Made by a program: the position numbers and the translations under genes
Notes under the pieces: generated by a model
Databases searched by the model: none
What the model was told of the DNA's origin: nothing
The model's input: the letters and a program-made list of their open reading frames with translations, nothing else
NCBI RefSeq assembly: GCF_024582815.1
Contig: NZ_CP102099.1
Span: 3,410,001 to 3,474,000 of the forward strand
Direction of reading: 5' to 3'
DNA: 64,000 nucleotides
Source: Acinetobacter colistiniresistens
Lineage (GTDB): Bacteria; Pseudomonadota; Gammaproteobacteria; Pseudomonadales; Moraxellaceae
Shown here: one piece after another, positions 5,218-22,791 of the stretch
Layout: each line of letters starts with the position of its first letter
Position numbering within the stretch: position 1 is the stretch's first letter

Positions 5218-6063
5218 TTAACTCGCTGCTTGATAAAACGGCACATCACCGTTAATCGTGGCACGATGCATAATTCGATGTGCATCACCATAATCAAATA
5301 AAGCCTTATGCTGCGTACAACGATTATCCCAAATCGCGACATCGCCTGCCTGCCACTGCCAACGCAAATGGAACCGTTCATTGGTGGCATGCGCAAATAA
5401 ATATTGCAACAATTCAGCACTTTCAACCTCATCCAGCTCATTAATACGTGTAGTAAATCCTTCACTCACAAACAAGATGGGCTGGCCTGTTACAGGATGT
5501 GTTCTGACCACAGGATGAACAACGGGTGGATTACGCTTAAAGGTGTCTTCCAGTTTTTGACGCTCAACATCATTATGCGCAAAACGTTCAATCGGGAAAG
5601 ACTGACGAATGTCATGTGTTGCGGTTAAGCCTTTTAACTTCTGCTGCAAGTCTTTATTCAAAGCAGCAAATGCCGCCGCGCCACTTGACCAGAGTGTATC
5701 ACCGCCTACAGGTGGAATCTTGATGGCTTGTAATACACAGCCCAATGGTGGCTTTTGGCTGAAAGTGACATCGGTATGCCAAAGTTCATTATCACGTAAG
5801 TCTTGTTTCCAACTGTCCAATACAATGATTTCAGGCACATCCACGATAGATGGATAGATCGGATGAATATGCAAAGAACCAAAACTACGTGCCAACTCAG
5901 CTTGCGCCTGAGGTGCGAGCTGCTGATTGCGGAAGAAAATTACATGATGGTCTAGCAAGGCCTGTTGAATTTGTTGTGTAGTATTTTCATCAGCCGTGTT
6001 TAAGTCAACATCGTGAATAATGGCACCGATTGTTGGTTTAATAACTTCAATATTTAAGGTCAT
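5218..6063 (-). CDS. tauD: Taurine dioxygenase (2-oxoglutarate/Fe(II)-dependent)
   Basis: A 281-residue protein, very close in length to E. coli TauD (283). It converts taurine, 2-oxoglutarate and O2 to sulfite, aminoacetaldehyde, succinate and CO2 in the cytosol. The Fe(II) facial triad is visible: His96 and Asp98 in ELWHTDVTFS, and His252 in TQHKALFDYG. HRIMHRATINGD carries the arginines (263 and 267) that bind 2-oxoglutarate and the sulfonate. It is the last gene of the tauABCD operon, 16 bases downstream of tauC. Its association with a taurine-specific binding protein makes the taurine assignment strong. Confidence 0.9.
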   Translation of the reverse strand: MTLNIEVIKPTIGAIIHDVDLNTADENTTQQIQQALLDHHVIFFRNQQLAPQAQAELARSFGSLHIHPIYPSIVDVPEIIVLDSWKQDLRDNELWHTDVTFSQKPPLGCVLQAIKIPPVGGDTLWSSGAAAFAALNKDLQQKLKGLTATHDIRQSFPIERFAHNDVERQKLEDTFKRNPPVVHPVVRTHPVTGQPILFVSEGFTTRINELDEVESAELLQYLFAHATNERFHLRWQWQAGDVAIWDNRCTQHKALFDYGDAHRIMHRATINGDVPFYQAAS

Positions 6064-6079
6064 CTTTTACTACTCACAC

Positions 6080-6961
6080 TTATAACTGTTGGCCATACCA
6101 AGGAGATAATTGCTTCTGTAACCAACGCAAAAACAATTCAAAACTAACCGCGACAATCGCAATCACAATAATGCCGAGAACCACTGTGTCGGTAATCAGG
6201 AACTGTGCTGCAGACTGCACCATAAAACCAATGCCTCGATCTGCTGCCACTAATTCCGAAGCCACCAATGTTGACCAGCCCACCCCCAAACCAATACGGA
6301 TACCCGTCAAGATATGCGGTAAAGCGGTTGGTAAAATCACATGCCAAAACACTTGCGACTGGCTTGCGCCTAAAGACAATGCTGCACGCTCACGGTTGAG
6401 CTGATGGCTGAGTACGCCATGGGTACTGCTGATAATCACAGGTGCAAGGATCGAAAAGAAAATCAAAAGCACTTTAGTGGTTTCACCAATCCCGAACCAG
6501 ATCACCAATAGTGGTAAATAGGCCAAAGGTGGAATCGGACGCAATAACTCAACCAATGGATCAAGCACTGCACGCACCCATTTGTTTAAACCCATCCATA
6601 AACCTAAAGGCACACCAATGGCTATCGCGGCAACTAAGGCCAATAAGACACGTGAAATACTTGCTGCCAAGTGTTGCCATAAAGTGGCTTTCATAAAACC
6701 TTGCTGGCTGACTTCAAGGAACTTCTGCCATACCGCTTGTGGACTGGGTAAAAACAGGCTTGGGACAATTTTTAATGCGGTAATCAAATACCAAATCACC
6801 AAGACACCGAGTACACTGGAAAGACTGAGTGCTAAACTACGATGACGAGTAAAGAAAGCTCCTATTGGACTCAAAAAAGAAGCAGACTGAGCTTGATTCG
6901 TCGATTGTAGTTGTTCTGTCTTACTCAGCTCATAAGCTGTATTTTTTGCTTGACCCGTCAT
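6080..6961 (-). CDS. tauC: Taurine ABC transporter permease
   Basis: A 293-residue inner-membrane permease of the BPD_transp_1 family. After a longer-than-usual N-terminal tail (about 45 residues) come six predicted membrane helices. The cytoplasmic EAA loop, which docks on the ATPase, is around RERAALSLGASQSQVFWHVI. Segments such as LRPIPPLAYLPLLVIWFGIG and TLWQHLAAS match E. coli TauC closely. The start overlaps the tauB stop by four bases, so the two are translationally coupled. Confidence 0.9.
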   Translation of the reverse strand: MTGQAKNTAYELSKTEQLQSTNQAQSASFLSPIGAFFTRHRSLALSLSSVLGVLVIWYLITALKIVPSLFLPSPQAVWQKFLEVSQQGFMKATLWQHLAASISRVLLALVAAIAIGVPLGLWMGLNKWVRAVLDPLVELLRPIPPLAYLPLLVIWFGIGETTKVLLIFFSILAPVIISSTHGVLSHQLNRERAALSLGASQSQVFWHVILPTALPHILTGIRIGLGVGWSTLVASELVAADRGIGFMVQSAAQFLITDTVVLGIIVIAIVAVSFELFLRWLQKQLSPWYGQQL

Positions 6962-7749
6962 ACAGCCACCTCATGTCCTGTCTGTTTCTGCGCACGTAAA
7001 CGTTCAAACAATTGCTCGCGTAATTGGATAAATTTCGGATCAGACTTAATCGCACGAATCGATTCGCCTTGCTTATAACGCGCTGCAAAATCCAGCTTTA
7101 AAGTTTCGACAATCTTGCCTGGGCGAGCAGTCATTAGCACCAGTTGATTACTCAGCAATAGTGCTTCCTCAATGTCATGAGTAATCAGGAAGAACGATTT
7201 ATTTTGTTCAATCCATAAATCCAGCACCAACTGTTGCATGGTTTCACGGGTAAAGGCATCAAGCGCAGCAAAAGGCTCATCCAGTAAAATAAATGCCGCA
7301 TGGCTGATCAAGGCACGTGCAATCCCAACCCGTTGTTTCATGCCACCGGACAATTCCCAGATATTGGCTTGAGCTACGTGACTTAAACCAACAATTTTTA
7401 GAATTGCATCGACTTGCTGCTGAATTTCTTGCGCTTTCAAACCCTTGAGCTGTAAAGCAAAACCGATATTTTCAGAGACATTTAACCAAGGTAACAGCGC
7501 ATGATCCTGAAATACCACTGCACGGCGCGCATCAGGCGCAGTCACCACTTCACGATCCAGTTTAATCTGACCTGAACTTGGCTGTTGAAAGCCAGCTAAG
7601 ATGTTGAGTAATGTCGTTTTACCACAGCCAGACTCACCCAAAATCACAGTCAACGTACCTTCTTCAATCTTCAGATTGATATCTTGCAATACAGGTACAG
7701 TCTGCTTTGGAAAAGTTAAATGAAGATGCTCGGCAGCTAATACGCTCAT
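6958..7749 (-). CDS. tauB: Taurine ABC transporter ATP-binding protein
   Basis: A 263-residue ABC ATPase. Walker A is GESGCGKTT at about residues 38-46. LPWLNVSENIGFALQLKG is the Q-loop region. The signature is LSGGMKQRVGIARAL, Walker B is FILLDEPFAALDA, and the H-loop is ITHDIEEA. The C-terminal segment ARYKQGESIRAIKSDPKFI matches the TauB tail rather than SsuB. It lies between tauA (9-base gap) and tauC (4-base overlap). Confidence 0.9.
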   Translation of the reverse strand: MSVLAAEHLHLTFPKQTVPVLQDINLKIEEGTLTVILGESGCGKTTLLNILAGFQQPSSGQIKLDREVVTAPDARRAVVFQDHALLPWLNVSENIGFALQLKGLKAQEIQQQVDAILKIVGLSHVAQANIWELSGGMKQRVGIARALISHAAFILLDEPFAALDAFTRETMQQLVLDLWIEQNKSFFLITHDIEEALLLSNQLVLMTARPGKIVETLKLDFAARYKQGESIRAIKSDPKFIQLREQLFERLRAQKQTGHEVAV

Positions 7750-7758
7750 TTAGATCTC

Positions 7759-8781
7759 CTATGGCTGTAAGAAATTGGTGGTCACATTATTTTGATAATC
7801 AGGTTTGACTTGATCGACTTTACCTTGGCTCTTTAAAAAAGTTGCGGTATCGAAAATATTCTTGGCAAATTCACCCGATAAAGTCGCTTGCTGTTGCTGA
7901 CGATCAAGGTACAGATTTCCTGAAAGAAGCAATGGAATATCTTTGCTGTCCGACCCTGTCAACTGAGCAATTTTCTGGATATTCTCCGCATTTTGCTCAA
8001 ATGCTTTCGGATCTTGGTTATAGCTTTCAATCTGCTTTAAGCTGGTTTGTACAAAGGCTTTTAAGAATTCTGGATTTTTTTCAGCGAAATCTTTACGCAC
8101 TACCCATAAATCATAAGTTGGTGCACCCCACTCGCCGACTTGTTTTGAGTCTGTTAAGACATGACCACTGGCTTTAACTTTACTCAATGCAGGTTCCCAA
8201 ACATAAGTTGCATCAATATCACCACGCTCCCAAGCTGCTGTAATTTCAGGTGGGCGTAAGTTAATGATCTTGACTTGATTATCTGCAATATTCCAATGCT
8301 TGAGTGCTGATAACAGGCTGTAATGTGTCGTTGAAACAAACGGAACGGCAATAGTTTTGCCAATTAAATCTTGAGGCGTCTGAATCCCAGATTTATTACT
8401 CACAACTAAAGCTTCGGAGCCACCTAATTTTGCAGTCACCAAAAATACTTCTATCGGTAAATCACGGCTAGCTGCGGCTGCCAATGGACTAGAACCGATA
8501 TTACCAATCACGACATCACCAGAAGCAAGTGCATTGACCACATCTGATCCTGCATCAAACTTGCGCCATTGAATTGCTTGATTACTATCACGTTCATAAT
8601 CACCATTGGCTTGTGCCACTTTGGTTGGATCCACACCCGTTTGATAGGCAATCACCACTGCCTTGTTATTTTTAGACTGAACTGGTGCAGCATCTTTTTG
8701 ATTTTGATAGACAATAAAAGCAACAATCGTCACAAGGACGATCGCTGTAACAATTAGCGGCTTAACGTTCTTGATGCCCAT
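7759..8781 (-). CDS. tauA: Taurine-binding periplasmic protein of the TauABC importer
   Basis: About 340 residues. The N-terminal hydrophobic stretch NVKPLIVTAIVLVTIVAFIV is followed by polar residues without a clear signal-peptidase site, so the protein may stay membrane-anchored. The mature part tracks E. coli TauA almost block by block: AYQTGVDPTKVAQANG, WRKFDAGSDVVNALASGDV, GNIGSSPLAAAASRDLPIEV, TIAVPFVSTTHYSLLSALKH and WGAPTYDLWVVRKDFAEK. This argues for taurine rather than a generic sulfonate. I use the ATG at 8781; an in-frame TTG at 8802 would add seven residues. It is the first gene of the leftward tau operon. Confidence 0.9.
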   Translation of the reverse strand: MGIKNVKPLIVTAIVLVTIVAFIVYQNQKDAAPVQSKNNKAVVIAYQTGVDPTKVAQANGDYERDSNQAIQWRKFDAGSDVVNALASGDVVIGNIGSSPLAAAASRDLPIEVFLVTAKLGGSEALVVSNKSGIQTPQDLIGKTIAVPFVSTTHYSLLSALKHWNIADNQVKIINLRPPEITAAWERGDIDATYVWEPALSKVKASGHVLTDSKQVGEWGAPTYDLWVVRKDFAEKNPEFLKAFVQTSLKQIESYNQDPKAFEQNAENIQKIAQLTGSDSKDIPLLLSGNLYLDRQQQQATLSGEFAKNIFDTATFLKSQGKVDQVKPDYQNNVTTNFLQP

Positions 8782-9205
8782 AATTAAATGATCTTTCAAC
8801 AATATAGGCTTATGGTATTCGGCTTGCTTTATGATTAAAAATAAGAAAAAGTGAGTTGCTTATTCTTTTATGAGATAAGAATAAGGCTTAGACAATTTAT
8901 GCTGCTTTTATCATCAATTTTGATATTTTTACTGTTCTTGCATTTAATTTTCCAAGTCACTCTTTTAAATATTTATCCTTTATTTTAATTGAAAAGTAAA
9001 ATATTTAATCCTGATAATTCTATATTTAAATTAAATAAGCACATTCACTTTAAAATTCAGTTTTAAACTATATTCCCAACAAGTTAATAAAAACCTATTA
9101 TTTATCAAAAATAGATATATAAATAAATTTTGCTTATTTTCCTGAATATCGAAACAGTCCTAAGATAAAAAAAACATCACGTTGATGTATATAGAGGTTA
9201 TAAAA
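8782..9205. promoter_or_regulatory. Divergent control region between tauABCD and the encapsulin operon, with a 9-bp inverted repeat
   Basis: This 424-base AT-rich stretch carries no gene. It separates the leftward tau operon from the rightward rhodanese/epsC/encapsulin/desulfurase genes, so two sulfur-linked promoters must lie here. One clear dyad is CTTATTCTT (8859-8867) with AAGAATAAG (8877-8885), about 80-100 bases upstream of the tauA ATG. It could be the binding site of a LysR-type activator such as CysB or Cbl, but I cannot match it to a known consensus. Confidence 0.45.
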
Positions 9206-9715
9206 ATGAATGCTCAATTTGATTCTGCTCAAGCTGTGGAATCCAGCTTTAGTTCTCACGGTTCTTCAAACGATCCACAACATATACTGCAGCGTGCGCA
9301 ACATTATGCAGAAGAAAATGAGCTTGATTTTACAGGCAGCATTCCTCCTGCTGAAGCCTGGTTTCTTGTTCAACAAGGCCATGCTGTTTTAGTGGATGTC
9401 CGTACCAATGAAGAACGTAAATTTGTGGGTTATGTTCCAGAAAGTATCCATGTAGCCTGGGCTACTGGAACATCATTTAACCGCAATCCACGTTTTCTGA
9501 AAGAACTAGATAGCAAAGTCGGTAAAGATCAAACCATTTTATTACTCTGCCGTAGTGGAAAACGCTCAGCCTTAGCAGCGGCAGCAGCTTTTAGTGCGGG
9601 TTTTGCCCAAGTTTATAATGTGCTGGAAGGTTTTGAAGGTGATTTAAACGAGCAACAACAACGTAATCAAAGCAATGGCTGGCGTACGCATCAGTTACCT
9701 TGGTTACAAGATTAA
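9206..9715 (+). CDS. Rhodanese-like domain sulfurtransferase
   Basis: A 169-residue single-domain rhodanese. VLVDVRTNEERKFVGYVPES starts the fold at about residue 61. LLLCRSGKRSALAAAA is the active-site loop, with the persulfide-forming cysteine at residue 115 in CRSGKRS. There is no signal peptide, so it is cytosolic. The start ATG at 9206 is preceded by AGAGG at good spacing; an in-frame TTG at 9182 is less likely. Rhodaneses move sulfane sulfur. Lying first in an operon with serine acetyltransferase, encapsulin and cysteine desulfurase, it probably passes sulfur to or from the stored pool (inference). Confidence 0.85.
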   Translation: MNAQFDSAQAVESSFSSHGSSNDPQHILQRAQHYAEENELDFTGSIPPAEAWFLVQQGHAVLVDVRTNEERKFVGYVPESIHVAWATGTSFNRNPRFLKELDSKVGKDQTILLLCRSGKRSALAAAAAFSAGFAQVYNVLEGFEGDLNEQQQRNQSNGWRTHQLPWLQD

Positions 9716-9777
9716 AGCTGCTTTTTTAAGCAATTATTTTACGATTTATTTAATATCTCGTTTTGCAAGGAACTCGC

Positions 9778-10716
9778 GTGAGCCAATGGAAAATACAGCC
9801 TGTCGTGGAAGGCCTACAACAAGCACGACATGAATGGAGAGAGCGTCAACATCGCATCAAAGAATTTGGTGGACGCGAACTGCCATCTAAAGATGCGCTT
9901 AAATCAATTTTAGATGATCTGTGTGGGATCTTATTTCCAATGCGGCTTGGGCCGAGTGATCTACGCCAAGAAACAGAAGATTATTATATTGCCTATACCC
10001 TTGATCGCGTCTTGAATGAACTGTTTGCGCAGGTCAAGCTGGCTTTAAATTATGAAGCCAAAAGTCGGGTTAAACCCATCCCTGTTTCAAGTAACGAGCG
10101 TCTGCTGTACGAACAGCAAGTCGCTTTGGCACAGACCATCGTACAAGATTTTGCCAATACCTTACCTAACATCCGTCGCTTATTGGATGCCGATGTCTGT
10201 GCAGCTTATGAAGGTGATCCCGCCGCACATAGTGTTGATGAAGTCCTGCTCTGCTACCCAGGTATTTTGGCAATCATCCATCATCGTGTAGCGCATCAGC
10301 TCTATCACAGTGTTCCACTGCTCTCACGCATTATTTCTGAATTGGCGCATTCGGCCACAGGGATTGATATTCATCCAGGCGCCCAAATTGGAAAAGGCTT
10401 CTTTATCGATCATGGCACAGGTGTAGTGATTGGTGAAACCTCAGTGATTGGCGAGTATGTGCGCATCTATCAGGCCGTTACGCTCGGCGCAAAACGCTTC
10501 GAGCTGAATGAAGATGGGGCACTGAAAAAAGATTATGCCCGTCACCCAATTGTTGAAGACCATGTGGTGATTTATGCAGGTGCAACCATTTTAGGCTGCA
10601 TCACCATTGGTAAGGGCTCCATTATTGGCGGTAACGTTTGGCTGACACATAGTGTTGCAGCAGGCAGCCAGATTTTACAGTCGCCAAGTGAGTCATTACA
10701 TAATAGTAAAGTTTAA
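9778..10716 (+). CDS. epsC: Serine O-acetyltransferase (EpsC/CysE family)
   Basis: About 312 residues, starting at the GTG at 9778 with AAGGA six bases upstream. It transfers acetyl from acetyl-CoA to L-serine, giving O-acetylserine, the acceptor for sulfide in cysteine synthesis. The C-terminal half is a left-handed beta-helix of hexapeptide repeats: GIDIHPGAQIGKGFFIDHGT, GVVIGETSVIGEYVRI and ATILGCITIGKGSIIGGNVW. The conserved catalytic His-Asp region is around FIDHGTG. The long helical N-terminal domain (about 190 residues) is typical of the EpsC-type enzymes commonly found next to family 2A encapsulins. It supplies the cysteine precursor beside a desulfurase that consumes cysteine. Confidence 0.88.
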   Translation: MSQWKIQPVVEGLQQARHEWRERQHRIKEFGGRELPSKDALKSILDDLCGILFPMRLGPSDLRQETEDYYIAYTLDRVLNELFAQVKLALNYEAKSRVKPIPVSSNERLLYEQQVALAQTIVQDFANTLPNIRRLLDADVCAAYEGDPAAHSVDEVLLCYPGILAIIHHRVAHQLYHSVPLLSRIISELAHSATGIDIHPGAQIGKGFFIDHGTGVVIGETSVIGEYVRIYQAVTLGAKRFELNEDGALKKDYARHPIVEDHVVIYAGATILGCITIGKGSIIGGNVWLTHSVAAGSQILQSPSESLHNSKV

Positions 10717-10951
10717 ATTAATGAGTTATTTAAATATTTTTCAGAATAAACAAACGTATATTCAACACTTATATTTATTTTTTATAAATATATTCTTATG
10801 AGTAATAAGTAAATAATTTATGATTATTTATCTCATAATAATATTTTTAAAAATACTAAATAGTCACTAGTCTAGTTGAATAAATCATTAAACATTATTG
10901 CAAGAAAACCAATTTTATTAACAAAGCCAAAGACAACAGGAAAATTGATTC

Positions 10952-11884
10952 ATGGCAAAAACCACTGATAAAGTCCAACTTGCACTTGGGGACCATGCCG
11001 CTAGACAGCTTGCCAATGCCACCAAGACCGTTCCACAACTTTCGACCATTACCCCGCGTTGGCTCACGCATTTATTGCAATGGATTCCTGTTGAAGCAGG
11101 TATTTATCGCGTCAACCGTGTCAGCAATACCGATGACATCCAAGTTGCATGCACACAACGTGATGAGGCTACATTGCCCCAAACTTTTGTTGATTATGAT
11201 GCGCAACCGCGGGAATATTTCTTAAATGGTGTTTCTACCGTTTTGGATATTCATACCCGTGTTGCCGATCTTTACAGCAGCCCACACGATCAAATTAAAG
11301 AACAATTACGTTTAACCATTGAAACCATTAAAGAACGCCAAGAAAGCGAGCTGATCAATAATCCTGAATATGGTTTATTGGCCAGTGTCGCAGATGAACA
11401 GCGTATCTCAACTTTAAATGGCCCCCCAACGCCAGATGACTTTGATGATTTATTGCGTAAGGTCTGGAAAGAACCAGGTTTCTTCCTTGCACATCCAGAT
11501 GCGATTGCTGCATTTGGCCGTGAATGTACCCGTCGTGGTGTACCGCCACCAACTGTCAGTTTATTTGGTTCACAGTTCATCACATGGCGTGGTGTCCCAC
11601 TGATTCCATCCAATAAAATTCCAGTGGAAGATGGTAAAACCAAAATCCTGTTACTCCGTGTAGGTGAAAAACGCCAAGGTGTTGTGGGCTTGTTCCAGCC
11701 GGGCTTGGCTGGCGAGCAGTCCCCAGGGCTTTCCGTACGCTTTATGGGCATCAATCGCAATGCAATTGCGTCTTATCTGATCTCACTATACTGTTCATTG
11801 GCAGTATTGACTGAGGATGCTTTGGCTGTGCTCGAAGATGTGGAGGTGGACAAATATCATGACTACCCAGTTAACTACAAATAA
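10952..11884 (+). CDS. srpI: Family 2A encapsulin nanocompartment shell protein
   Basis: A 310-residue protein recognised as a SrpI-type family 2A encapsulin: the N-terminal arm DKVQLALGDHAARQLANATK, then WLTHLLQWIPVEAGIYRVNR, then the HK97-like core with VSLFGSQFITWRGVPLIPSN. It has no cyclic-nucleotide-binding domain, which separates it from family 2B. Shells of this family self-assemble in the cytosol and enclose a cysteine desulfurase, here the next gene. The ATG at 10952 follows AGGA by about ten bases. The 235 bases before it are AT-rich and gene-free, and may hold a separate promoter. It overlaps the desulfurase start by 26 bases. Confidence 0.92.
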   Translation: MAKTTDKVQLALGDHAARQLANATKTVPQLSTITPRWLTHLLQWIPVEAGIYRVNRVSNTDDIQVACTQRDEATLPQTFVDYDAQPREYFLNGVSTVLDIHTRVADLYSSPHDQIKEQLRLTIETIKERQESELINNPEYGLLASVADEQRISTLNGPPTPDDFDDLLRKVWKEPGFFLAHPDAIAAFGRECTRRGVPPPTVSLFGSQFITWRGVPLIPSNKIPVEDGKTKILLLRVGEKRQGVVGLFQPGLAGEQSPGLSVRFMGINRNAIASYLISLYCSLAVLTEDALAVLEDVEVDKYHDYPVNYK

Positions 11885-13811
11885 TTTGCAAGGTAGTCCA
11901 ACGGGTTCTGAAGTGGTCGGTGTTAGCCCACCGTCCAACTTCCCAGATGAAGCAACACTTTCAAGACTCGCCTCTGAATTTTTTGCTGCACTGCCAAGCT
12001 CAGGCAGTGGTCACCCTTCTGGTTTGAATTTGGACTTACCTCATGTTGGTGCACCTCCCCACCAACCTCAGCCTGCTGAACCTTTAGCAGCGTTAAGTGG
12101 TCGTGCGCCCAATATTGCTTATGAAAAAAGTTTGAACCCTGAATATCCCGAGCATATCCCAAACTATCCCGATTATCCTGAACGTCGTGCGATTGCATCT
12201 GCGCCAGTAGTCGGTGGGGCGAACTTGCCTCGTCCACCAATTGAACCAAATTTTCCACAAGCTATTCATAGCTCACCGAATGTGCCTTTGGTTGAACCTT
12301 CTCGCCCATCGGCAAGCGAGGCATCACCATTTTATTTTTTAAATGATTTTGCAGCACCCAGCACATCAAATTCTGAATTTGATGCTGCCAGTTTTGCAAC
12401 AGCACAATCATTTCAATTACCACACGGCGATGCGCTAAAAAGTTTATTGCAGCAAGACCAGCCACGTTCAGCCCAACCCCAAAGTACTGCGTCCTCAGGT
12501 TTCTACTTTCTAGATCTACCTCAGAGCAATACAGATTACGGCAATTACCAAGCCTCACAGCCGCAGTTTGTTGCCAATGCCGCTCAGCCCTTGGATATTC
12601 AGGCCATTCGTCGTGATTTTCCAATCTTGCAAGAACGCGTCAATGGCCGTCCTCTGGTCTGGTTTGATAATGCAGCAACGACGCAGAAGCCACAAAGCGT
12701 GATTGATCGTATTGCCTATTTTTATCAGCATGAAAATTCCAATATTCATCGTGCAGCACATGAACTGGCAGCGCGTGCGACCGATGCTTATGAACATGCA
12801 CGTAATGTCGTGGCCCGTTTTATTGGGGCAAAATCATCCAAAGAGATCATTTTTGTTCGTGGCACCACCGAAGGGATTAATCTGATAGCCAAGACGTGGG
12901 GTGAGCAGAATATTGCTGAAGGTGATGAGATCATTGTGTCGCATCTTGAGCATCACGCCAACATTGTACCCTGGTTCCAACTCACCAAAAAAGTCGGTGC
13001 CAAACTCCGTGTCATTCCAGTGGATGATACTGGCCAAATCATTTTGGAAGAACTGCCAAAATTGATCAATGAGCAAACCAAACTGATCTCGATTACCCAA
13101 GTCTCCAACGCCTTAGGTACGGTCACCCCTGTGGCTGAGGTGATCAAAATCGCGCATGCCAAAGGGGTGCGGGTCTTGGTTGATGGTGCTCAATCGGTTT
13201 CGCATATGCCAACCGATGTGCAGGCAATTGATGCGGATTTTTTTGTATTCTCAGGACATAAAGTCTTTGGGCCAACAGGTATTGGTGCAGTCTATGCCAA
13301 ACCTGAAATTCTGGAGACCATGCCTGTGTGGGAAGGTGGCGGCAATATGATTCAGGACGTCAGCTTCGAGCAAGTTGTTTATCAACCTGCACCCAACAAG
13401 TTTGAAGCAGGTACAGGCAATATTGCCGATGCAGTTGGTTTAGGCGCTGCACTGGAATATGTGGAACGCCTCGGCATTCATAATATTGCCCGTTATGAAC
13501 ATGACTTGCTGGAATATGGCCAGCATGCATTAAGCAGCGTTGCAGGTTTGAGACCGATTGGCACGGCGAAAAACAAAGCCAGTGTCATGTCCTTTACCCT
13601 TGCAGGTTATTCAACCGAGCAAGTGGGTAAGGCACTGAATCAACATGGCATTGCAGTGCGTTCAGGACACCATTGTGCTCAGCCGATCTTGCGTCGTTTT
13701 GGTGTTGAACAAACGGTGCGCCCATCTTTGGCGTTTTACAACACCACGGAAGAAATTGATTTGCTGGTGTCAGTCTTACATCAACTGAGCAGAAACAAAC
13801 GCAGTGCTTAA
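11859..13811 (+). CDS. Cysteine desulfurase, encapsulin cargo (family 2A), with long disordered N-terminal targeting domain
   Basis: 650 residues from the ATG at 11859, which has GGAGG upstream and lies inside the shell gene's 3' end. Residues 1-245 are rich in Pro, Ser, Ala and Gln and lack a fold. They contain the helical segment EATLSRLASEFFAALP (31-46) and two FYFL motifs (158-161 and 215-218). This matches the encapsulation domain described for family 2A cargo. From residue 246 it is a SufS-type class II desulfurase: PLP lysine Lys468 in FVFSGHKVFGPTG and persulfide cysteine Cys606 in RSGHHCAQP. It converts L-cysteine to L-alanine, leaving sulfur as persulfide. Inside the shell this feeds elemental sulfur storage (established for the A. 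baumannii homologue, inferred here). Confidence 0.93.
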   Translation: MTTQLTTNNLQGSPTGSEVVGVSPPSNFPDEATLSRLASEFFAALPSSGSGHPSGLNLDLPHVGAPPHQPQPAEPLAALSGRAPNIAYEKSLNPEYPEHIPNYPDYPERRAIASAPVVGGANLPRPPIEPNFPQAIHSSPNVPLVEPSRPSASEASPFYFLNDFAAPSTSNSEFDAASFATAQSFQLPHGDALKSLLQQDQPRSAQPQSTASSGFYFLDLPQSNTDYGNYQASQPQFVANAAQPLDIQAIRRDFPILQERVNGRPLVWFDNAATTQKPQSVIDRIAYFYQHENSNIHRAAHELAARATDAYEHARNVVARFIGAKSSKEIIFVRGTTEGINLIAKTWGEQNIAEGDEIIVSHLEHHANIVPWFQLTKKVGAKLRVIPVDDTGQIILEELPKLINEQTKLISITQVSNALGTVTPVAEVIKIAHAKGVRVLVDGAQSVSHMPTDVQAIDADFFVFSGHKVFGPTGIGAVYAKPEILETMPVWEGGGNMIQDVSFEQVVYQPAPNKFEAGTGNIADAVGLGAALEYVERLGIHNIARYEHDLLEYGQHALSSVAGLRPIGTAKNKASVMSFTLAGYSTEQVGKALNQHGIAVRSGHHCAQPILRRFGVEQTVRPSLAFYNTTEEIDLLVSVLHQLSRNKRSA

Positions 13812-16541: not shown

Positions 16542-16586
16542 GGTCATCAACCTTGTGAATTAAAACGCACTCAATAAAGGCACAAC

Positions 16587-18326
16587 ATGAATACGATTAC
16601 ACTGGACTATGACATTGTCGTCATCGGTGGGGGAACGGCTGGCCCAATGGCAGCCATCAAAGCCAAAACAGCCAACCCCAACCTGAAAGTTTTACTGATT
16701 GAAAAAGCCAATGTGAAACGCAGTGGTGCAATTTCAATGGGCATGGATGGCCTGAATAATGCCATTATTCCTGGCTATGCCACGCCTGAGCAATACACCA
16801 AGGAAATTACCATTGCCAATGATGGCATTGTCAATCAAGCTACAGTCTATGCCTACGCCAAACACAGTTTCACCACCATTCAGCAACTGGATCAGTGGGG
16901 TGTGAAATTTGAAAAAGATCAAACAGGTGAATATGCCGTCAAAAAAGTCCATCACATGGGCGCTTATGTGCTGCCGATGCCTGAAGGTCATGACATTAAA
17001 AAAGTCCTGTATCGCCAATTGAAACGTGCGCAAGTCAAAATCAATAACCGCATCGTCACTACTCGCCTGCTGAAAAATGCTGAGGGAGCGATCAACGGCA
17101 TACTCGGCTTTGACTGTCGCAATGGTGATTTCTATGTGATCAAAACCAAGGCTGCGATTTTATGTTGCGGTGCAGCAGGACGTTTGGGCTTGCCTGCATC
17201 TGGCTATTTGATGGGCACCTATGAAAACCCAACCAATGCAGGTGATGGCTATGCCATGGCTTACCATGCCGGAGCTGAACTCTCCAATCTGGAATGCTTC
17301 CAGATCAATCCGCTTATTAAAGATTATAACGGCCCTGCCTGTGCCTATGTGACTGGTCCTTTAGGGGGTTATACCGCCAACAGCAAAGGCGAACGTTTTA
17401 TTGAATGTGACTACTGGTCAGGCCAAATGATGTGGGAGTTCTATCAAGAACTGCAAAGTGGCAATGGCCCAGTATTCCTGAAAATGGATCATTTGGCCGA
17501 AGAGACCATTCAAACTATTGAAGAGATTTTACATACCAATGAACGCCCAAGTCGTGGACGTTTCCATGAAGGACGTGGCACCGATTATCGCCAAGATATG
17601 GTAGAAATGCAGATTTCAGAAATCGGTTTCTGTAGCGGTCACAGTGCTTCCGGGGTGTGGGTCAATGAAAAAGCAGAAACCTCGGTCAAAGGCCTGTATA
17701 GCGCGGGTGATATGGCAGCCGTTCCACATAACTACATGCTCGGTGCCTTTACCTATGGCTGGTTCGCTGGGGTCAATGCCGCTGAATATGTCATTGAACA
17801 AGCTGATTCAGAACTGAATGCCGATGAAATCGAAGCTGAAAAAGCTCGTATTTTTGCCCCTTTGCAACGTCCAGAAGGATTGTCATCCGAGCAAGTGGAA
17901 TACAAGTTACGCCGTATGGTCAATGACTACCTCCAGCCGCCCAAAACCCGACAGAAAATTGAGATTGCGCTGAAACGCTTTGAGGAAATCAAAGCCGATA
18001 TTGAGCAGATCAATGCCAGTCACCCACACGAATTGATGCGTGCCGCCGAAGTGGCTGTGATTCGGGACTGCGCCGAAATGGCCGCACGTGCCTCACTCTT
18101 CCGTGAAGAAAGCCGTTGGGGACTCTATCACTACCGTGCAGATTGCCCTGAAAAAAACGATCAGGACTGGTTCTGTCATGCCCATCTGAAAAAAGATCAG
18201 CACGGCAATATGGTCTGCTTTAAAAAAATGGTTGAGCCCTATCTGATCCCGATTGAGCAAGATGAGGCCAACTCCTACAACCGATTACGGATTAATAAAA
18301 AATTAGTGGCTGAAACAGTCAAATAA
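16587..18326 (+). CDS. AprA/AsfA-like FAD-dependent reductase (organosulfur utilisation)
   Basis: 579 residues of the fumarate reductase/adenylylsulfate reductase alpha-subunit family. IVVIGGGTAGPMAAIKAKTA near the N-terminus is the FAD dinucleotide fold. KAAILCCGAAGRLGLPASGY and GLYSAGDMAAVPHNYMLGAF are the further FAD-contact motifs seen in AprA-type proteins. It is followed after ten bases by a ferredoxin resembling AprB. This flavoprotein/ferredoxin pair beside a sulfonate-type ABC transporter matches AsfA/AsfB of Pseudomonas arylsulfonate desulfonation. A dissimilatory APS reductase is unlikely here because no sat or dsr genes are present. The exact substrate is inferred only as an organosulfur compound. 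Confidence 0.75.
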   Translation: MNTITLDYDIVVIGGGTAGPMAAIKAKTANPNLKVLLIEKANVKRSGAISMGMDGLNNAIIPGYATPEQYTKEITIANDGIVNQATVYAYAKHSFTTIQQLDQWGVKFEKDQTGEYAVKKVHHMGAYVLPMPEGHDIKKVLYRQLKRAQVKINNRIVTTRLLKNAEGAINGILGFDCRNGDFYVIKTKAAILCCGAAGRLGLPASGYLMGTYENPTNAGDGYAMAYHAGAELSNLECFQINPLIKDYNGPACAYVTGPLGGYTANSKGERFIECDYWSGQMMWEFYQELQSGNGPVFLKMDHLAEETIQTIEEILHTNERPSRGRFHEGRGTDYRQDMVEMQISEIGFCSGHSASGVWVNEKAETSVKGLYSAGDMAAVPHNYMLGAFTYGWFAGVNAAEYVIEQADSELNADEIEAEKARIFAPLQRPEGLSSEQVEYKLRRMVNDYLQPPKTRQKIEIALKRFEEIKADIEQINASHPHELMRAAEVAVIRDCAEMAARASLFREESRWGLYHYRADCPEKNDQDWFCHAHLKKDQHGNMVCFKKMVEPYLIPIEQDEANSYNRLRINKKLVAETVK

Positions 18327-18336
18327 GGAACATCAC

Positions 18337-18582
18337 ATGGCTTTTATTTTTAAAGAAATTCCCCATCGTACTGCCGCCCCCGTATTGGTGGATGAAGACA
18401 AATGTATTGCGGACAAGGGTTGTACCGTCTGTGTTGATGTTTGCCCGATGGACTTATTGGCGATTCATCCAATCAGCAACAAAGCCTACATGCAGTTTGA
18501 TGAATGTTGGTATTGCATGCCATGCGAAAAAGACTGCCCGACCGATGCCATTCAGGTCAACATTCCATATTTACTTAAATGA
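18337..18582 (+). CDS. Ferredoxin with two 4Fe-4S clusters (AprB/AsfB-like)
   Basis: An 81-residue protein. Two cysteine sets are visible: CIADKGCTVCVDVCPMD, and CWYCMPCEKDCPTDAI with the standard CxxCxxCxxxCP spacing. The first set has a widened first gap (CxxxxxCxxCxxxCP), as in AprB-type ferredoxins. It should pass electrons to or from the flavoprotein encoded just upstream. The downstream binding-protein gene starts 11 bases after its stop. Confidence 0.85.
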   Translation: MAFIFKEIPHRTAAPVLVDEDKCIADKGCTVCVDVCPMDLLAIHPISNKAYMQFDECWYCMPCEKDCPTDAIQVNIPYLLK

Positions 18583-18592
18583 GGGGAACAAC

Positions 18593-20002
18593 ATGAGACT
18601 CAACCACTTCGCCAAAAGCCTGATTCTGAGTAGTAGTTTGCTAACGATCTTTAGCTCGGCACATGCAGAAAAGATTCGGATTGCGATTGGTACCCAAGAT
18701 ACCACCATTAACTGTGCTACTGGCGGCTTGCTGATTCGCGAGTTAAATCTACTGCCTAAATATTTGCCCAAAACAGGTAAATATAAAGATGCCCAATACG
18801 ATATTGTCTGGAAAAACTTTACCTCTGGTGCACCATTGACCAGTGAAATGGTTGCAGGTCGTTTAGATATTGGCGCAATGGCAGATTTCCCAGCAGTCAA
18901 TAACAATGTCGCTTTTAAAAAGACAGGCAAAGAAAGTATTTTCCTGAGTGTGCTTTCTGGCAGTACCACGGGAAGTGGTAATGGCATTGTGGTTCCGCTG
19001 GATTCTGATGTGAATTCCATTCAGGATTTAAAAGGGAAAACCATTTCTGTTCCTTTCGCTTCAACCGCACATGGTCTTTTACTGCGTGCTGTTGCTGCAC
19101 AAGGTTGGGACCCGAAAAAGGATGTCAAAATTATTGCGCAAGCCCCTGAAGTGGCGGGTCCAGCACTCAAAAGCAATAAGATTGATGCACATGCTGACTT
19201 CGTCCCTTTTGCCGAATTATTCCCTTATCAAGGTTTTGCCCGCAAAATCTATGACGGTGCGCAGGCCAAAACCCCCACCTTTCATGGTTCTTTAGCCAGC
19301 AAAGCCTATGCTCAACAATATCCAGAAATTATTCAGGCCTATTTACGCGCGACGATTGAAGCCGATCAATTGATCCGTAAACAACCTGAAAAATACAGTG
19401 AACTGATCGCAGCTAAAACAGGGATTCCTGCAGAAGTGGTGTATTTATTTCATGGACCTCTCGGTGTACAAACTCGTGACCTGACCTGGAAACCTGAATA
19501 CAAACAAGCCACTCAAACTGCTGTCGATACCTTGAAATATCTGGGTCGTGATGATGTTGATATCAATGTCAGTCAGTTCATTGATGACCAATACATCAAA
19601 AAAGCCTTCCAGAGTGCAGGCTTGAATTATGCACAACAACTCAAAAATTACGCTCAATCCCCTCTGGTTGCCACAGATGCCCTGACGCAAAAACCAATTC
19701 AGAATTTTGATCGGGTCACACAGATTTGGGTGAAAGGTGAGGCCAAAGTACGTAGCTATGCCACCCCTGAAACGGCCTTTGCAGATTTAAATAAATTAAA
19801 GCAAAGCGGTAAAAACATCCGTGTGGTCTATAACCAAGATCGTCATTTAAGAATCAAATTACTGGCGAATCTGGCATGGTATGCCACCGATAAAAGCGGT
19901 CAGATCAGTGCCTTCTTACTGCGTGGTGATGCCAACAATTGGGCCAAAACACATGGCGGCAAAGTCTATGACTTTAATAATGCCCAAAAGTTGGTGAAGT
20001 GA
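18593..20002 (+). CDS. ABC transporter substrate-binding protein (SsuA/NMT1-like) with C-terminal extension
   Basis: 469 residues from the ATG at 18593, preceded by GAGGGG. The signal peptide MRLNHFAKSLILSSSLLTIF ends at a probable AHA/EK cleavage. The body is a type 2 periplasmic fold, with GRLDIGAMADFPAVNNNVAF and KTISVPFASTAHGLLLRAV as seen in sulfonate and nitrate binding proteins. It is about 130 residues longer than SsuA. The extra C-terminal part ends in GDANNWAKTHGGKVYDFNNA, which resembles the AxxHGGxVxxF segment of NosL-type metal-binding proteins (a weak similarity judged by eye). It may correspond to AsfC of Pseudomonas. An in-frame frame extending upstream overlaps the ferredoxin and is not used. 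Confidence 0.8.
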   Translation: MRLNHFAKSLILSSSLLTIFSSAHAEKIRIAIGTQDTTINCATGGLLIRELNLLPKYLPKTGKYKDAQYDIVWKNFTSGAPLTSEMVAGRLDIGAMADFPAVNNNVAFKKTGKESIFLSVLSGSTTGSGNGIVVPLDSDVNSIQDLKGKTISVPFASTAHGLLLRAVAAQGWDPKKDVKIIAQAPEVAGPALKSNKIDAHADFVPFAELFPYQGFARKIYDGAQAKTPTFHGSLASKAYAQQYPEIIQAYLRATIEADQLIRKQPEKYSELIAAKTGIPAEVVYLFHGPLGVQTRDLTWKPEYKQATQTAVDTLKYLGRDDVDINVSQFIDDQYIKKAFQSAGLNYAQQLKNYAQSPLVATDALTQKPIQNFDRVTQIWVKGEAKVRSYATPETAFADLNKLKQSGKNIRVVYNQDRHLRIKLLANLAWYATDKSGQISAFLLRGDANNWAKTHGGKVYDFNNAQKLVK

Positions 20003-20004
20003 AC

Positions 20005-20100
20005 AAATCCCTCCCAACCTCCCTTTAGAAAGGGAGGAGCCTCACGGAGCTTAGTCAGTCTTTAGACTCGTGAAAAGTCCCCTTTTAAAGGGGGGATTTT
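20005..20100. repeat. REP-like palindromic element inside the transporter operon
   Basis: A 96-base element. It opens with AAATCCCTCCC and closes with GGGGGGATTTT, so its ends are inverted. Inside are two hairpins: CCTCCCTTT/AAAGGGAGG (20018-20037) and CCCCTTTT/AAAGGGG (20079-20093). Elements with this AAATCCC...GGGATTT architecture are familiar from Acinetobacter intergenic regions. It separates the binding-protein gene from the permease gene in one transcription unit, where it could act in mRNA processing or partial termination. Confidence 0.7.
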
Positions 20101-20120
20101 GAGATTCAGGAGAAAACAAT

Positions 20121-20963
20121 ATGAATAGTTTAGCGGATACCCAACCGACTCAGTCTAAGGCAATCCGCCATGTGCTGAAATTTTCAAAAAGTCGTATCAT
20201 TTCATACAGCTTGAGTACTATGTCACTGGTGTTCAGTCTGGTATTTTGGCAACTGGCTTCACAGCATCATTTAAATTTAGGGCTAATCAATTTTTCCAAT
20301 GTACCTTCGCCACGAGAGGTGATTCAGTCTCTACTGGCTTTTGCCGAACTGGATACCGCACTTGCTCACGTAAAGGCCAGTATTGCTCGAGTTTTGATTG
20401 GTTTCTTACTCGCGTCAGTGATTGGGGTCATTGTAGGATTGTTGATTGGTTATTCCAAAACGCTAGCGGCCCTATTGATGCCACCTCTAGAAATCTTGCG
20501 CCCGATTCCTGCGGTGGCATGGATACCCTTGGCAATTTTGATGTTTCCATCATCAGAAGCTTCAATGATTTTCATTACCTTTTTAGGGGCGTTATTTCCA
20601 ATCTTGCTCAATACCATTCACGGCGTTGAGGCCGTTGATCAACGCCTCATTGCGTCCGCAAAAAGTCTAGGCGCAGGTCAGTTTGCCATTTTGCGAGAAG
20701 TGATTATTCCTGGATCTTTACCTAGTATCACCACTGGTCTTGCTATTGGTATGGGCACTTGCTGGTTCTGTCTGGTCACAGCTGAAATGATTTCCGGTCA
20801 GCTCGGTATCGGCTATTTCACTTGGGAATCCTTCACCTTACAAAACTATGCAGACATTATTGTTGGCATGCTCTTGATCGGTGCCTTAGGGATGTTCAGC
20901 AGTGCTTTTCTGCGCTATCTCGGTAAAAAACTTACCCCTTGGTATCAGTTAAGGAAGGCATAA
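20121..20963 (+). CDS. ABC transporter permease (SsuC/TauC-like)
   Basis: 280 residues, six predicted membrane helices, BPD_transp_1 family. The EAA coupling loop is around DQRLIASAKSLGAGQFAILR. PPLEILRPIPAVAWIPLAIL is typical of the sulfonate/nitrate permease branch. It lacks the TauC-specific segments seen in the other permease of this window, so the two transporters are distinct. Its start follows the palindromic element, and its stop is one base before the ATPase gene. Confidence 0.82.
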   Translation: MNSLADTQPTQSKAIRHVLKFSKSRIISYSLSTMSLVFSLVFWQLASQHHLNLGLINFSNVPSPREVIQSLLAFAELDTALAHVKASIARVLIGFLLASVIGVIVGLLIGYSKTLAALLMPPLEILRPIPAVAWIPLAILMFPSSEASMIFITFLGALFPILLNTIHGVEAVDQRLIASAKSLGAGQFAILREVIIPGSLPSITTGLAIGMGTCWFCLVTAEMISGQLGIGYFTWESFTLQNYADIIVGMLLIGALGMFSSAFLRYLGKKLTPWYQLRKA

Positions 20964-20964
20964 C

Positions 20965-21786
20965 ATGCATCACTACGGTCATATTCATTTAAACAATATC
21001 AATCTGCATCTGGGTCAGGATAAACAACGCTTTCAGGCACTGGATCATGTCTCTTTTGACGTTCAGGCAGGTGAATTTGTCTGTTTGCTGGGTCCTTCGG
21101 GTTGTGGTAAATCAACATTGCTTGGCGCACTGGCAGGCCATTTGCCGATTAGCTCGGGCACCATGTTACTGGATCAAAAAACTATTGAAAAACCCTCTTC
21201 CGATCGTGGTTTAGTATTTCAGCAGCACACGCTCTTTCCTTGGAAAAGTGTGCTAGAGAATGTGTGCTTTGGCTTAAAAATGAAAGGGATTTCCAAGGCC
21301 AAAAGACGAGAACAAGCAGTGCAAATGATTGAACTGGTCGGCTTAAAAGGCTTTGAACATAAGTATCCTGCCGAACTGTCTGGTGGTATGCAACAACGGG
21401 TTGAAATTGCACGCGTACTGATTAATCAGCCTCGAGTATTGCTCATGGACGAACCCTTTGGTGCATTGGATGCTCAAACACGTTTAAAGATGCAGGAACT
21501 ATTGCTTGAAATCTGGCAAAGCATTCAAACCTCGGTGCTGTTCATTACCCACGATATTGATGAAGCTTTATTTCTGGCAGATCGGGTCTTGATCATGAGC
21601 CATCGTCCGGGACGTATCATTGAAGAAATCAAACTGGATTTTGCACGTCCACGTCATGTTGATTTGGTCACTTCAAGCGAATTTACCCAAATTAAAAAAC
21701 ATTGCATTCAAGTATTAAAACAGGCCACTCAAGCTGAACTCAGCCGGTTAAATCCACTCGGTTTAAATCAGAAAGTCGCTATTTAG
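20965..21786 (+). CDS. ABC transporter ATP-binding protein (SsuB/TauB-like)
   Basis: 273 residues. Walker A is GPSGCGKSTLL, the Q-loop region is QQHTLFPWKSVLENVCFGLK, the signature is LSGGMQQRVEIARVL, Walker B is VLLMDEPFGALDA and the H-loop is ITHDIDEA. It should energise the permease encoded one base upstream and serve the binding protein of the same cluster. The family is sulfonate/nitrate/taurine type. Substrate specificity comes from the binding protein and is not known. Confidence 0.85.
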   Translation: MHHYGHIHLNNINLHLGQDKQRFQALDHVSFDVQAGEFVCLLGPSGCGKSTLLGALAGHLPISSGTMLLDQKTIEKPSSDRGLVFQQHTLFPWKSVLENVCFGLKMKGISKAKRREQAVQMIELVGLKGFEHKYPAELSGGMQQRVEIARVLINQPRVLLMDEPFGALDAQTRLKMQELLLEIWQSIQTSVLFITHDIDEALFLADRVLIMSHRPGRIIEEIKLDFARPRHVDLVTSSEFTQIKKHCIQVLKQATQAELSRLNPLGLNQKVAI

Positions 21787-21798
21787 GAACAATAAAAG

Positions 21799-22791
21799 AT
21801 GAGTCTAAATTACCCAGTCCTGACGGATATTGATGAGGATTATGCGGATTATCTCCTTCAACTGAATCAGCACGATGAAAATATCCGCTTTGTCGCAATT
21901 ATGAATATTGCCGATGAGGAACAAACCGAATTATTAAACTGGTTACAGCATGCTGTGTTACATGATCCTGCCAGCAAGGTACGTGAGTTGGCCGCCACCC
22001 GTTTAGAGGGTTGGGAGGATACAACATCTTTACATACTTTGGCCCAAGCCTTGAACGATCCACATGAAAATGTACGTATTGCAGCAGCGCAAAGCTTAAG
22101 TGAAATTAAACATGTCGAATCTGCTGATCATCTGGCAACATATTTGCAGCATCACGATGACTTTGTGATTGCTTCGATTTTGAGAGCAATTAGGGAGTTA
22201 CGGGCTGAACACTTATTTGAAGCTATCCTAGAGCATGTTCAGCATCGCAATGCCTTGGTCCGTAAAGAAGCAGTCAGTACATTGTGTTGGTTGCAGAAAC
22301 AGGAAGGCTTAGCAACCTTAGCACATATCGCACAGCATGATGTTGATACTGAAATCCGCCGTACCGCCACAGGTGGCTTGGCGGCAACTCAAGTTTCAAC
22401 ACCTGAAATTTTATCAGCTTTACACAGTTCTCTCACAGCCGAGGCATGGCAACTCAGGGTCGAAGCTGCTTTGACCATTGGAAAATTAAAAGTCCTTGAA
22501 TTAGAACAACCACTTTTGCAACAACTAGATGACCCTTATTGGCAAGTTCGCATTGCAGTTGCACGCAGTTTGGGTTTACTCAAATCCAAAGCGGCAATCG
22601 CCAAACTCCAAGAAAATTTCCAGCATGACATCAGTAACCTCCGTAAAGAAGTTGCGATTGCCTTGGGAGAAATTGGTGGGGAATCCGCTCAGCATATTTT
22701 ATTACAGCATGCCGAAGATCCTGACCCAGAAGTGCGTAAATCGATTCGGATTGGACTCGCTTTGATCAAGGAGAAACAATGTGTCAGTTGA
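21799..22791 (+). CDS. HEAT-repeat protein of the organosulfur cluster
   Basis: 330 residues made almost entirely of alpha-helical HEAT repeats of about 31 residues. Recurring motifs include HDPASKVRELAATRLEGW, NDPHENVRIAAAQSLSEI, DPYWQVRIAVARSLGLL and DPDPEVRKSIRIGLALI. There is no signal peptide, so it is a cytosolic scaffold or partner protein. HEAT proteins of this kind act as lyases (phycobilin), chaperones or docking platforms. Here it is translated between an ABC ATPase and a DUF971 protein, overlapping the latter by 11 bases. A role in assembling or docking the flavoprotein/ferredoxin pair is possible, but nothing in the sequence shows it. Confidence 0.75.
   Translation: MSLNYPVLTDIDEDYADYLLQLNQHDENIRFVAIMNIADEEQTELLNWLQHAVLHDPASKVRELAATRLEGWEDTTSLHTLAQALNDPHENVRIAAAQSLSEIKHVESADHLATYLQHHDDFVIASILRAIRELRAEHLFEAILEHVQHRNALVRKEAVSTLCWLQKQEGLATLAHIAQHDVDTEIRRTATGGLAATQVSTPEILSALHSSLTAEAWQLRVEAALTIGKLKVLELEQPLLQQLDDPYWQVRIAVARSLGLLKSKAAIAKLQENFQHDISNLRKEVAIALGEIGGESAQHILLQHAEDPDPEVRKSIRIGLALIKEKQCVS

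Follow-up and report, generated by a model that had tools for sequence, protein, structure and literature searches.

How are a rhodanese and a serine acetyltransferase connected to the encapsulin sulfur store beside which they are encoded? The question is raised by a stretch of 64,000 nucleotides from Acinetobacter colistiniresistens (the window), where ORF and profile searches place a rhodanese (RHO), a serine acetyltransferase (SAT), a Family 2A encapsulin shell and a cysteine desulfurase (CyD) at 9206-13811, all open and on one strand. The operon type, in which a sulfur-releasing enzyme is enclosed by a protein shell, is already known; elemental sulfur storage is reportedly the subject of a 2024 paper by Benisch et al., to go by its title, and close relatives of the shell and the rhodanese have solved structures. 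The store itself is known. New here are the one-way dependence described below, the conservation of the cargo motifs and their absence from rhodaneses, a 27-bp element, the exact overlap counts and an AprAB-like neighbour.

The four genes

9206..9715, + strand: rhodanese (RHO), 169 aa from ATG, active-site loop CRSGKRS (PF00581; 8w14_A)
9763..10716, + strand: serine O-acetyltransferase, EpsC type (SAT), 317 aa, TTG start uncertain (NF041874; 3f1x_A)
10952..11884, + strand: Family 2A encapsulin shell protein, 310 aa (NF041162, PF19307; 8t6r_A)
11842..11849, + strand: ribosome-binding-like GGAGGTGG within the shell gene, 9 nt upstream of the CyD ATG (from sequence)
11859..13811, + strand: cysteine desulfurase cargo CyD, 650 aa (NF041166)

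The four-gene operon is confirmed to be intact in the window, and the identities that an earlier note had given its genes from the sequence alone are borne out by PF00581, NF041874, NF041162/PF19307 and NF041166. RHO, for which the ORF tool begins at TTG 9182 and ATG 9206 was taken, has the single-domain rhodanese fold and the cysteine active-site loop, which reads CRSG[KN]RS in 70 of 71 aligned rows; the predicted model has a mean pLDDT of 88.2. SAT scores 159.1 bits with the NCBIfam model NF041874 (cut-off 150), whose label "EpsC" we use because that cut-off is reached; the cysE model TIGR01172 gives 162.9, under its cut-off of 210.65. The N-terminal domain (PF06426, 21.1 bits, cut-off 21) and hexapeptide repeats (PF00132) of such enzymes were found, the serine acetyltransferase 3f1x_A matches with 241 bits, and a standard cysE is present elsewhere in the genome.

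The shell scores 544 bits with NF041162 (encap_f2a, cut-off 380) and 356 bits with the SrpI-like family PF19307, the only Pfam family found in it, so that it is an SrpI-like shell without a cyclic-nucleotide domain. The solved structure 8t6r_A, which we take to be the Family 2A shell of Acinetobacter baumannii, aligns over 310/310 residues (675 bits). CyD, for which the ORF tool begins at 11817 and the ATG at 11859 was taken, reaches 925 bits with the family 2A cargo desulfurase model NF041166 (cut-off 800) and is the sole gene of the genome above the SufS cut-off. A class-wide search with this cargo model was of little use, with matches in 368 of 369 genomes and just 4 above cut-off, because the model holds the SufS domain; it served only to obtain the shells that seeded the genome scan.

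Gene order and overlap

Of 80 named loci, 62 keep the order RHO-SAT-SHELL-CYD. RHO is the steadier accessory gene (74/80, against 70/80 for SAT), and four of the six loci in which it was missed lie on contigs <5 kb. In 7 loci with RHO, shell and CyD the fetched sequence contained no SAT, and that of 2 Rubrivivax loci contained neither RHO nor SAT; therefore neither is needed everywhere. In 6/80 loci a CysK gene separates RHO from SAT (a profile search confirmed one of these), and the serine-to-cysteine route is therefore complete there. CysK is the only enzyme cluster that turns up repeatedly in the intervals between these genes across the 80 loci, where single ORFs were annotated in part, which fits the earlier statement that, apart from the rhodanese, no dedicated sulfur-release enzyme is visible. 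A hidden regulator gene in the gap between SAT and shell was considered and rejected for the window, where six reading frames hold no helix-turn-helix; a short helix-turn-helix gene precedes the shell in 15/80 loci, none of them in Acinetobacter, and one of the 15 was checked by profile.

The 26-base overlap of shell and CyD reported earlier is real (11859-11884). It is exactly 26 bp in 66 of 76 loci, and a Shine-Dalgarno-like word stands before CyD in 59 of the 76 scored.

Targeting motifs of the desulfurase

11859..12584, + strand: CyD N-terminal targeting region, 242 residues by the chosen cut (motif and alignment analysis)
11967..11984, + strand: motif LASEFF, residue 37 of CyD (LAxxFF-type in 71/79 rows)
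12330..12341, + strand: first FYFL motif, residue 158 (YYFL-type in 79/79 rows)
12408..12449, + strand: third motif SFQLPHGDALKSLL, between both FYFL (strict pattern in 35/79 rows)
12501..12512, + strand: second FYFL motif, residue 215 (two copies in 50/79 rows, one in 29)

CyD is adjacent to the shell and SufS-like, with a long N-terminal extension carrying both published motifs. The alignment of this region is sparse. The LAxxFF-type and YYFL-type motifs are conserved above chance: when the residues of the 79 regions are shuffled, 0.98 and 0.37 regions are expected to show them, against the 71 and 79 seen. For the third motif the expectation is 0.01. The helix and FYFL motifs singled out by the earlier note are thus shared across CyD homologues.

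None of the three patterns occurs in 66 rhodaneses. SAT was likewise rejected as cargo: the LAxxFF-type pattern is found in 5 of 71 SATs, always as LAxxLF, and the other two patterns in none.

Distribution in Acinetobacter

Among 175 Acinetobacter genomes, RHO was found in 60/60 shell-bearing and 5/115 shell-less genomes, and SAT in 60/60 and 9/115. The dependence is therefore one-way: genomes with a shell always have RHO and SAT, but the converse fails, which is new. The five shell-less RHO genes, four of them with SAT, share one site, ClpB-(SAT)-RHO-OsmC-Crp, at which other genomes carry SHELL-CYD after RHO. Comparison of two shell-less genomes gives a dN/dS of 0.085 for RHO and of 0.049 for SAT, so both genes of this pair are under purifying selection. 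In four shell-bearing pairs RHO gives lower values (0.033-0.050), and its constraint may therefore be looser without the shell. The persistence of RHO and SAT in shell-less relatives suggests that the two have a separate function. The earlier question of how the two enzymes are linked to the store is in this way narrowed: neither of them carries the cargo motif set, and shell-less species keep them both.

Could the shell-less loci represent an early form of the operon? The tree of flanking genes, which places L152 and L154 among shell-bearing genomes, speaks against it; by this tree, loss of the shell looks likelier, probably on two or more occasions. With a support of 0.35, the tree of RHO and SAT does not settle the matter, nor does it bring L151, L153 and L155 together; the two trees are not in full agreement and some of their branches are weak. 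The two genomes compared for dN/dS may be separate cases of shell loss. Where a species keeps RHO and SAT without shell and cargo, nature has provided a deletion strain in which one half of the system can be seen apart from the other.

Relation to published systems

One of the closest known systems is that of A. baumannii, where 8w14 is the rhodanese of strain 118362. The window shell aligns over its whole length with the A. baumannii shell, and the window RHO is 80% identical over 147 columns. Named relatives of the A. baumannii group (L079-L083) share the four-gene order, and a named A. baylyi genome (L078) has this operon too.

In Synechococcus elongatus the N-terminal domain of CyD is necessary and sufficient for loading into SrpI, and the system is induced in sulfur starvation (Nichols et al., 2021; PMC8049743). 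The window resembles it in the SrpI-like shell, the SufS-like cargo and the motifs, which read LARLANEFFS and AASPYYFLDG there; however, the window CyD has two YYFL-type motifs where one is named in that paper. The word "rhodanese" is absent from its main text, which brings in serine-O-acetyltransferase only in the general context of the cysteine pathway. A survey from 2021 (PMC8346489) found SAT and rhodanese to be the most highly enriched accessory genes of Family 2A CD operons; the one-way dependence, the promoter element and the AprAB-like neighbour are not among the points made in the part of the survey covered here.

Proposed mechanism and alternatives

We consider it fairly probable that the locus encodes a Family 2A encapsulin sulfur bank in which RHO and SAT would be a cytosolic pair able to stand by itself, and shell and CyD a two-gene cassette relying on them. 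SAT would make O-acetylserine and may in this way feed the store, as cysteine synthase would turn O-acetylserine and sulfide, from imported sulfate or sulfonates, into cysteine. CyD, which its N-terminal motifs would keep in the shell, would strip the sulfur from cysteine; the sulfur would remain inside and alanine would exit. RHO would presumably act outside the shell on cytosolic sulfane sulfur or persulfide, as acceptor upon withdrawal from the store. Sulfur storage in A. colistiniresistens itself we infer from the homologue. Against the sulfur bank counts the finding that Synechococcus shell and CyD knock-outs have no growth defect (PMC8049743).

Alternatively, RHO and SAT could belong to the routine handling of cysteine and of thiosulfate or persulfide, being just co-regulated with the store, from which small thiols such as glutathione free the sulfur with no dedicated enzyme. 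Both genes are indeed kept and constrained without a shell, and the genome holds 6 rhodanese domains, so others could substitute for RHO. However, not one of the 60 shell-bearing Acinetobacter genomes is without RHO, which is tighter than a loose link requires, and we hold this explanation to be possible but rather unlikely. It is improbable that the shell mainly channels CyD sulfur to one partner, a co-regulated rhodanese docked on its exterior, with a large store not being the point. Exterior docking was proposed by Andreas and Giessen (2021), the last element being our addition. The steadier presence of RHO compared to SAT agrees with docking. However, the title of the 2024 paper reports elemental sulfur storage, and the RHO residues before about 28 are unconserved, which leaves no sign of a conserved docking tail, though the folded domain could still dock. 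That RHO is a second cargo within the shell is very improbable, since genetic linkage is all that speaks for it, while the cargo motifs are missing from rhodaneses and RHO residues 7-20 are unconserved with pLDDT <50.

Promoter element and flanking modules

9114..9140, + strand: conserved 27-bp element, 92 nt upstream of the RHO start, holding AAAT-N11-ATTT (motif matrix)
5218..8802, - strand: tauD, tauC, tauB and tauA-like genes, divergent to the operon (taurine models)
16587..22791, + strand: right-flank module, comprising
16587-18326, + strand: AprA-like flavoprotein
18337-18582, + strand: AprB-like ferredoxin
about 18593-20002, + strand: SsuA-like binding protein
20121-20963, + strand: permease
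20965-21786, + strand: ATPase
21799-22791, + strand: HEAT protein

The sulfur bank with its separable SAT-RHO pathway can be extended, although this is doubtful, to a plug-in cassette of shell and CyD with its own LysR-type operator and with the AprAB-like oxidoreductase and ABC importer as dedicated feeder or drain of the store. The 27-bp element lies 89-100 nt upstream of RHO in 18/18 Acinetobacter loci with RHO followed by SAT, three of which were not used to build the matrix, and in 0/19 loci with other layouts. It is the single match in the window at <=3 mismatches, with 0 in shuffles. AAAT-N11-ATTT (T-N11-A) can be read as LysR-type-like and the element as a putative operator; shared by these loci, it is a concrete starting point for finding the regulator.

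The window copy is bordered by tauABCD and by the AprAB-like module, whereas the 10-kb flanks fetched for L079-L083 contain neither. The models TauD, TauC and TIGR01729 (TauA) score above cut-off, TauB and PRK11480 (TauA) below. By raw counts that ignore kinship and genome size, TauD is present in 51/60 shell-bearing and 31/115 shell-less Acinetobacter genomes; 9 of these 82 matches (8 shell-bearing, 1 shell-less) are just 57-59% identical and may be other dioxygenases.

The AprA-like flavoprotein scores 1122 bits with PRK08275 and 192 bits with the aprA model TIGR02061, under its cut-off of 642; its best solved relative is 8a8o_A, a PAPS reductase alpha subunit (220 bits). Again by raw counts regardless of kinship and genome size, it occurs in 26/60 shell-bearing and 3/115 shell-less Acinetobacter genomes. 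An obligate link to the shell was rejected, the gene lying within 7 kb of the shell in just 11 of the 26 genomes and being fragmented in two of the 11 (G010 and G130). A limited literature search gave no match for the AprAB-like module. Among 332 genomes of the order, 17 have the AprA-like gene, 14 of them without a shell; the gene is present in each of the 3 genomes with a shell, but G570 and G842 carry it on a different contig. The module adjoins the encapsulin operon in Acinetobacter and in Pseudomonas loci, and it is a candidate partner of the sulfur store.

Identity of the four genes

The operon consists of four genes in the following order:

9206-9715, + strand, single-domain rhodanese (RHO), first gene
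9763-10716, + strand, EpsC-type serine acetyltransferase (SAT), second gene
10952-11884, + strand, Family 2A encapsulin (SHELL)
11859-13811, + strand, cysteine desulfurase cargo (CyD)

These four genes had been proposed in this order by the earlier note; all reading frames are open and the sequence is as claimed. Its reading of the operon is correct, and the operon is a member of an already known encapsulin type. A profile search of the window identified SHELL as a Family 2A encapsulin (NF041162, 544 bits), and a domain search of SHELL found no cNMP domain. The protein is 100% identical to the shell of named A. proteolyticus, which marks the genome as Acinetobacter, and aligns over 310 of 310 residues with the solved structure 8t6r_A (675 bits). 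CyD matches the NCBIfam Family 2A cargo desulfurase model NF041166 with 925 bits, and its catalytic domain (residues 235-644) has a solved relative, 8kg1_A. RHO is 80% identical over 147 columns to solved 8w14_A from A. baumannii 118362; among the weaker fold matches, at rank 9 and with 21% identity, is 1qxn, the polysulfide-sulfur transferase of Wolinella, which is a hint at most. Besides SAT, a standard cysE lies elsewhere in the genome, which also has six rhodanese domains; no gene in it other than CyD exceeds the SufS cut-off.

RHO and SAT with and without the compartment

Our data show that RHO and SAT are a layer separable from the compartment, which is new evidence bearing on the purpose of these two enzymes. 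The SHELL model was run on 175 Acinetobacter genomes, of which 60 matched, 59 above its cut-off. All 60 shell-bearing genomes carry RHO, with E values of at most 1e-25, and SAT, with E values of at most 1e-60; one rhodanese and three SAT matches cross a stop. RHO also occurs in five shell-less genomes and SAT in nine. The dependence among the 175 genomes is one-way: SHELL is always accompanied by RHO and SAT, and these are found without SHELL as well. The corresponding Fisher values ignore kinship.

The shell-less RHO is flanked by ClpB and OsmC-Crp in all five cases, and SAT lies there in four. The same site holds RHO-SHELL-CyD in eleven shell-bearing genomes: ClpB and SAT precede it on one stretch in ten (in G104, ClpB-SAT is on another contig), and OsmC and Crp follow 3' in eight. 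Two shell-less loci, L152 and L154, are nested among shell-bearing genomes in the flank tree; support for this placement is weak in the RHO+SAT tree. Between these two loci, dN/dS is 0.085 for RHO (dS 0.28) and 0.049 for SAT (dS 0.26). Therefore, constraint on both genes persists in the absence of the compartment. Shell-bearing pairs gave 0.033-0.050 for RHO (four pairs) and 0.017-0.099 for SAT (five pairs), and the constraint on RHO may perhaps be less tight once the compartment is missing.

The match below the cut-off (L158, genome G165) is a SHELL gene split over two frames; the RHO, SAT and cargo frames there are open despite the split. One genome (G094) has two SHELL copies, in two Family 2A shell-cargo pairs (L156 and L157) about 20 kb apart; a SAT gene adjoins one of them, and a RHO-SAT pair lies about 9 kb away from the other.

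Operon layouts

The 80 named loci are the best 80 of 569 confirmed in a single scan and are all Proteobacteria by their record titles, so the counts speak for Proteobacteria. With gene order assigned via the best tblastn hit, 62/80 showed RHO-SAT-SHELL-CyD in one direction, 7/80 RHO-SHELL-CyD, 3/80 SAT divergent from RHO-SHELL-CyD, and 8/80 other or cut-off forms; RHO was found in 74 and SAT in 70. Of the 76 loci scored, 66 have a SHELL-CyD overlap of exactly 26 bases and 59 a Shine-Dalgarno-like word within SHELL, which suggests that the two genes are translationally coupled. Scoring left out four loci (SHELL ORF not called in two, cargo absent in one, start not found in one).

CysK lies between RHO and SAT in 6/80 (L105, L124, L138, L140, L141 and L142), and a short XRE-type helix-turn-helix gene directly 5' of SHELL in 15/80, none of them Acinetobacter (for example L094:9649-9897). 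Both counts come from ORFs of at least 70 aa, with one example of each confirmed by profile (L140 for CysK). At L076:12930-14144, a sulfur transport protein gene (PF04143) directly follows CyD.

Cargo motifs

CyD was collected from 79 of the 80 named loci and the window, minus L077, where the catalytic start was not located by pattern, giving 79 rows. An LAxxFF-type motif is present in 71/79 (0.98 expected from residue shuffles) and a YYFL-type motif in 79/79 (0.37 expected), with two copies in 50 rows (0.0 expected) and one in 29. Earlier work (PMC8049743) had described two such motifs. The strict pattern of a third block, SFxLP...L..LL, matches 35/79 rows. None of the three patterns is present in 66 rhodaneses searched. 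In a 71-row alignment, RHO is unconserved before about residue 28, and its catalytic loop reads CRSG[KN]RS in 70 rows, including all five shell-less ones (exception L084).

Putative promoter element

One block is prominent in the aligned RHO upstream regions of the window and 15 loci:

9114-9140, + strand, 27-bp putative promoter element, 92 nt before the RHO start

A matrix was built from the ten distinct sequences of the block; in a scan of 42 Acinetobacter loci, it placed the element 89-100 nt upstream of RHO in 18 loci, which include several close relatives: 16 intact RHO-SAT-SHELL-CyD loci (L071-L085, L089), L158 with the same layout and its split SHELL, and L157, where the shell pair lies about 9 kb beyond RHO-SAT. 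Loci outside matrix building scored 34.8 (L076), 28.2 (L157) and 20.8 bits (L158). The 19 remaining RHO loci, in which SAT is divergent or not beside RHO or SHELL is absent, all stayed below 17 bits, with a maximum of 16.8 in L166, and nothing elsewhere in the 42 loci scored over 17 bits. We read a T-N11-A dyad in the putative element; a LysR-type regulator would be our guess. The window has a single match at up to three mismatches, and a second, weaker one (10804, 12.4 bits) in the SAT-SHELL gap. This gap (10717-10951) is AT-rich and 235 bases long.

Neighboring sulfur genes

Neighbors lying up to 7 kb from the centre of SHELL were clustered in the best 80 of 569 loci, with one representative checked per cluster. 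The raw counts, taken with no background control, are 15/80 for a taurine or sulfonate binding protein, 10/80 for a sulfate-binding protein, 5/80 for O-acetylhomoserine sulfhydrylase, 4/80 for CysW/T and 3/80 for MetI. At L162, tauABCD-like genes lie 5' of RHO-SHELL-CyD on the same strand. The right flank of the window holds a further module, whose AprA-like gene begins 2.8 kb 3' of CyD:

15789-22791, AprAB-like module with GntR, AprA-like flavoprotein, AprB-like ferredoxin, SsuA-like ABC importer and HEAT protein

The module is likewise 3' of CyD in four named Acinetobacter loci; at L089, the AprA match covers the first part only. Parts of it lie 5' of RHO on the same strand in Pseudomonas L125, L127, L131 and L139, the fetched stretch of L139 having the binding protein and HEAT gene only. 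The module starts within 7 kb of SHELL in 11 of the 26 Acinetobacter genomes that have SHELL and the AprA-like gene.
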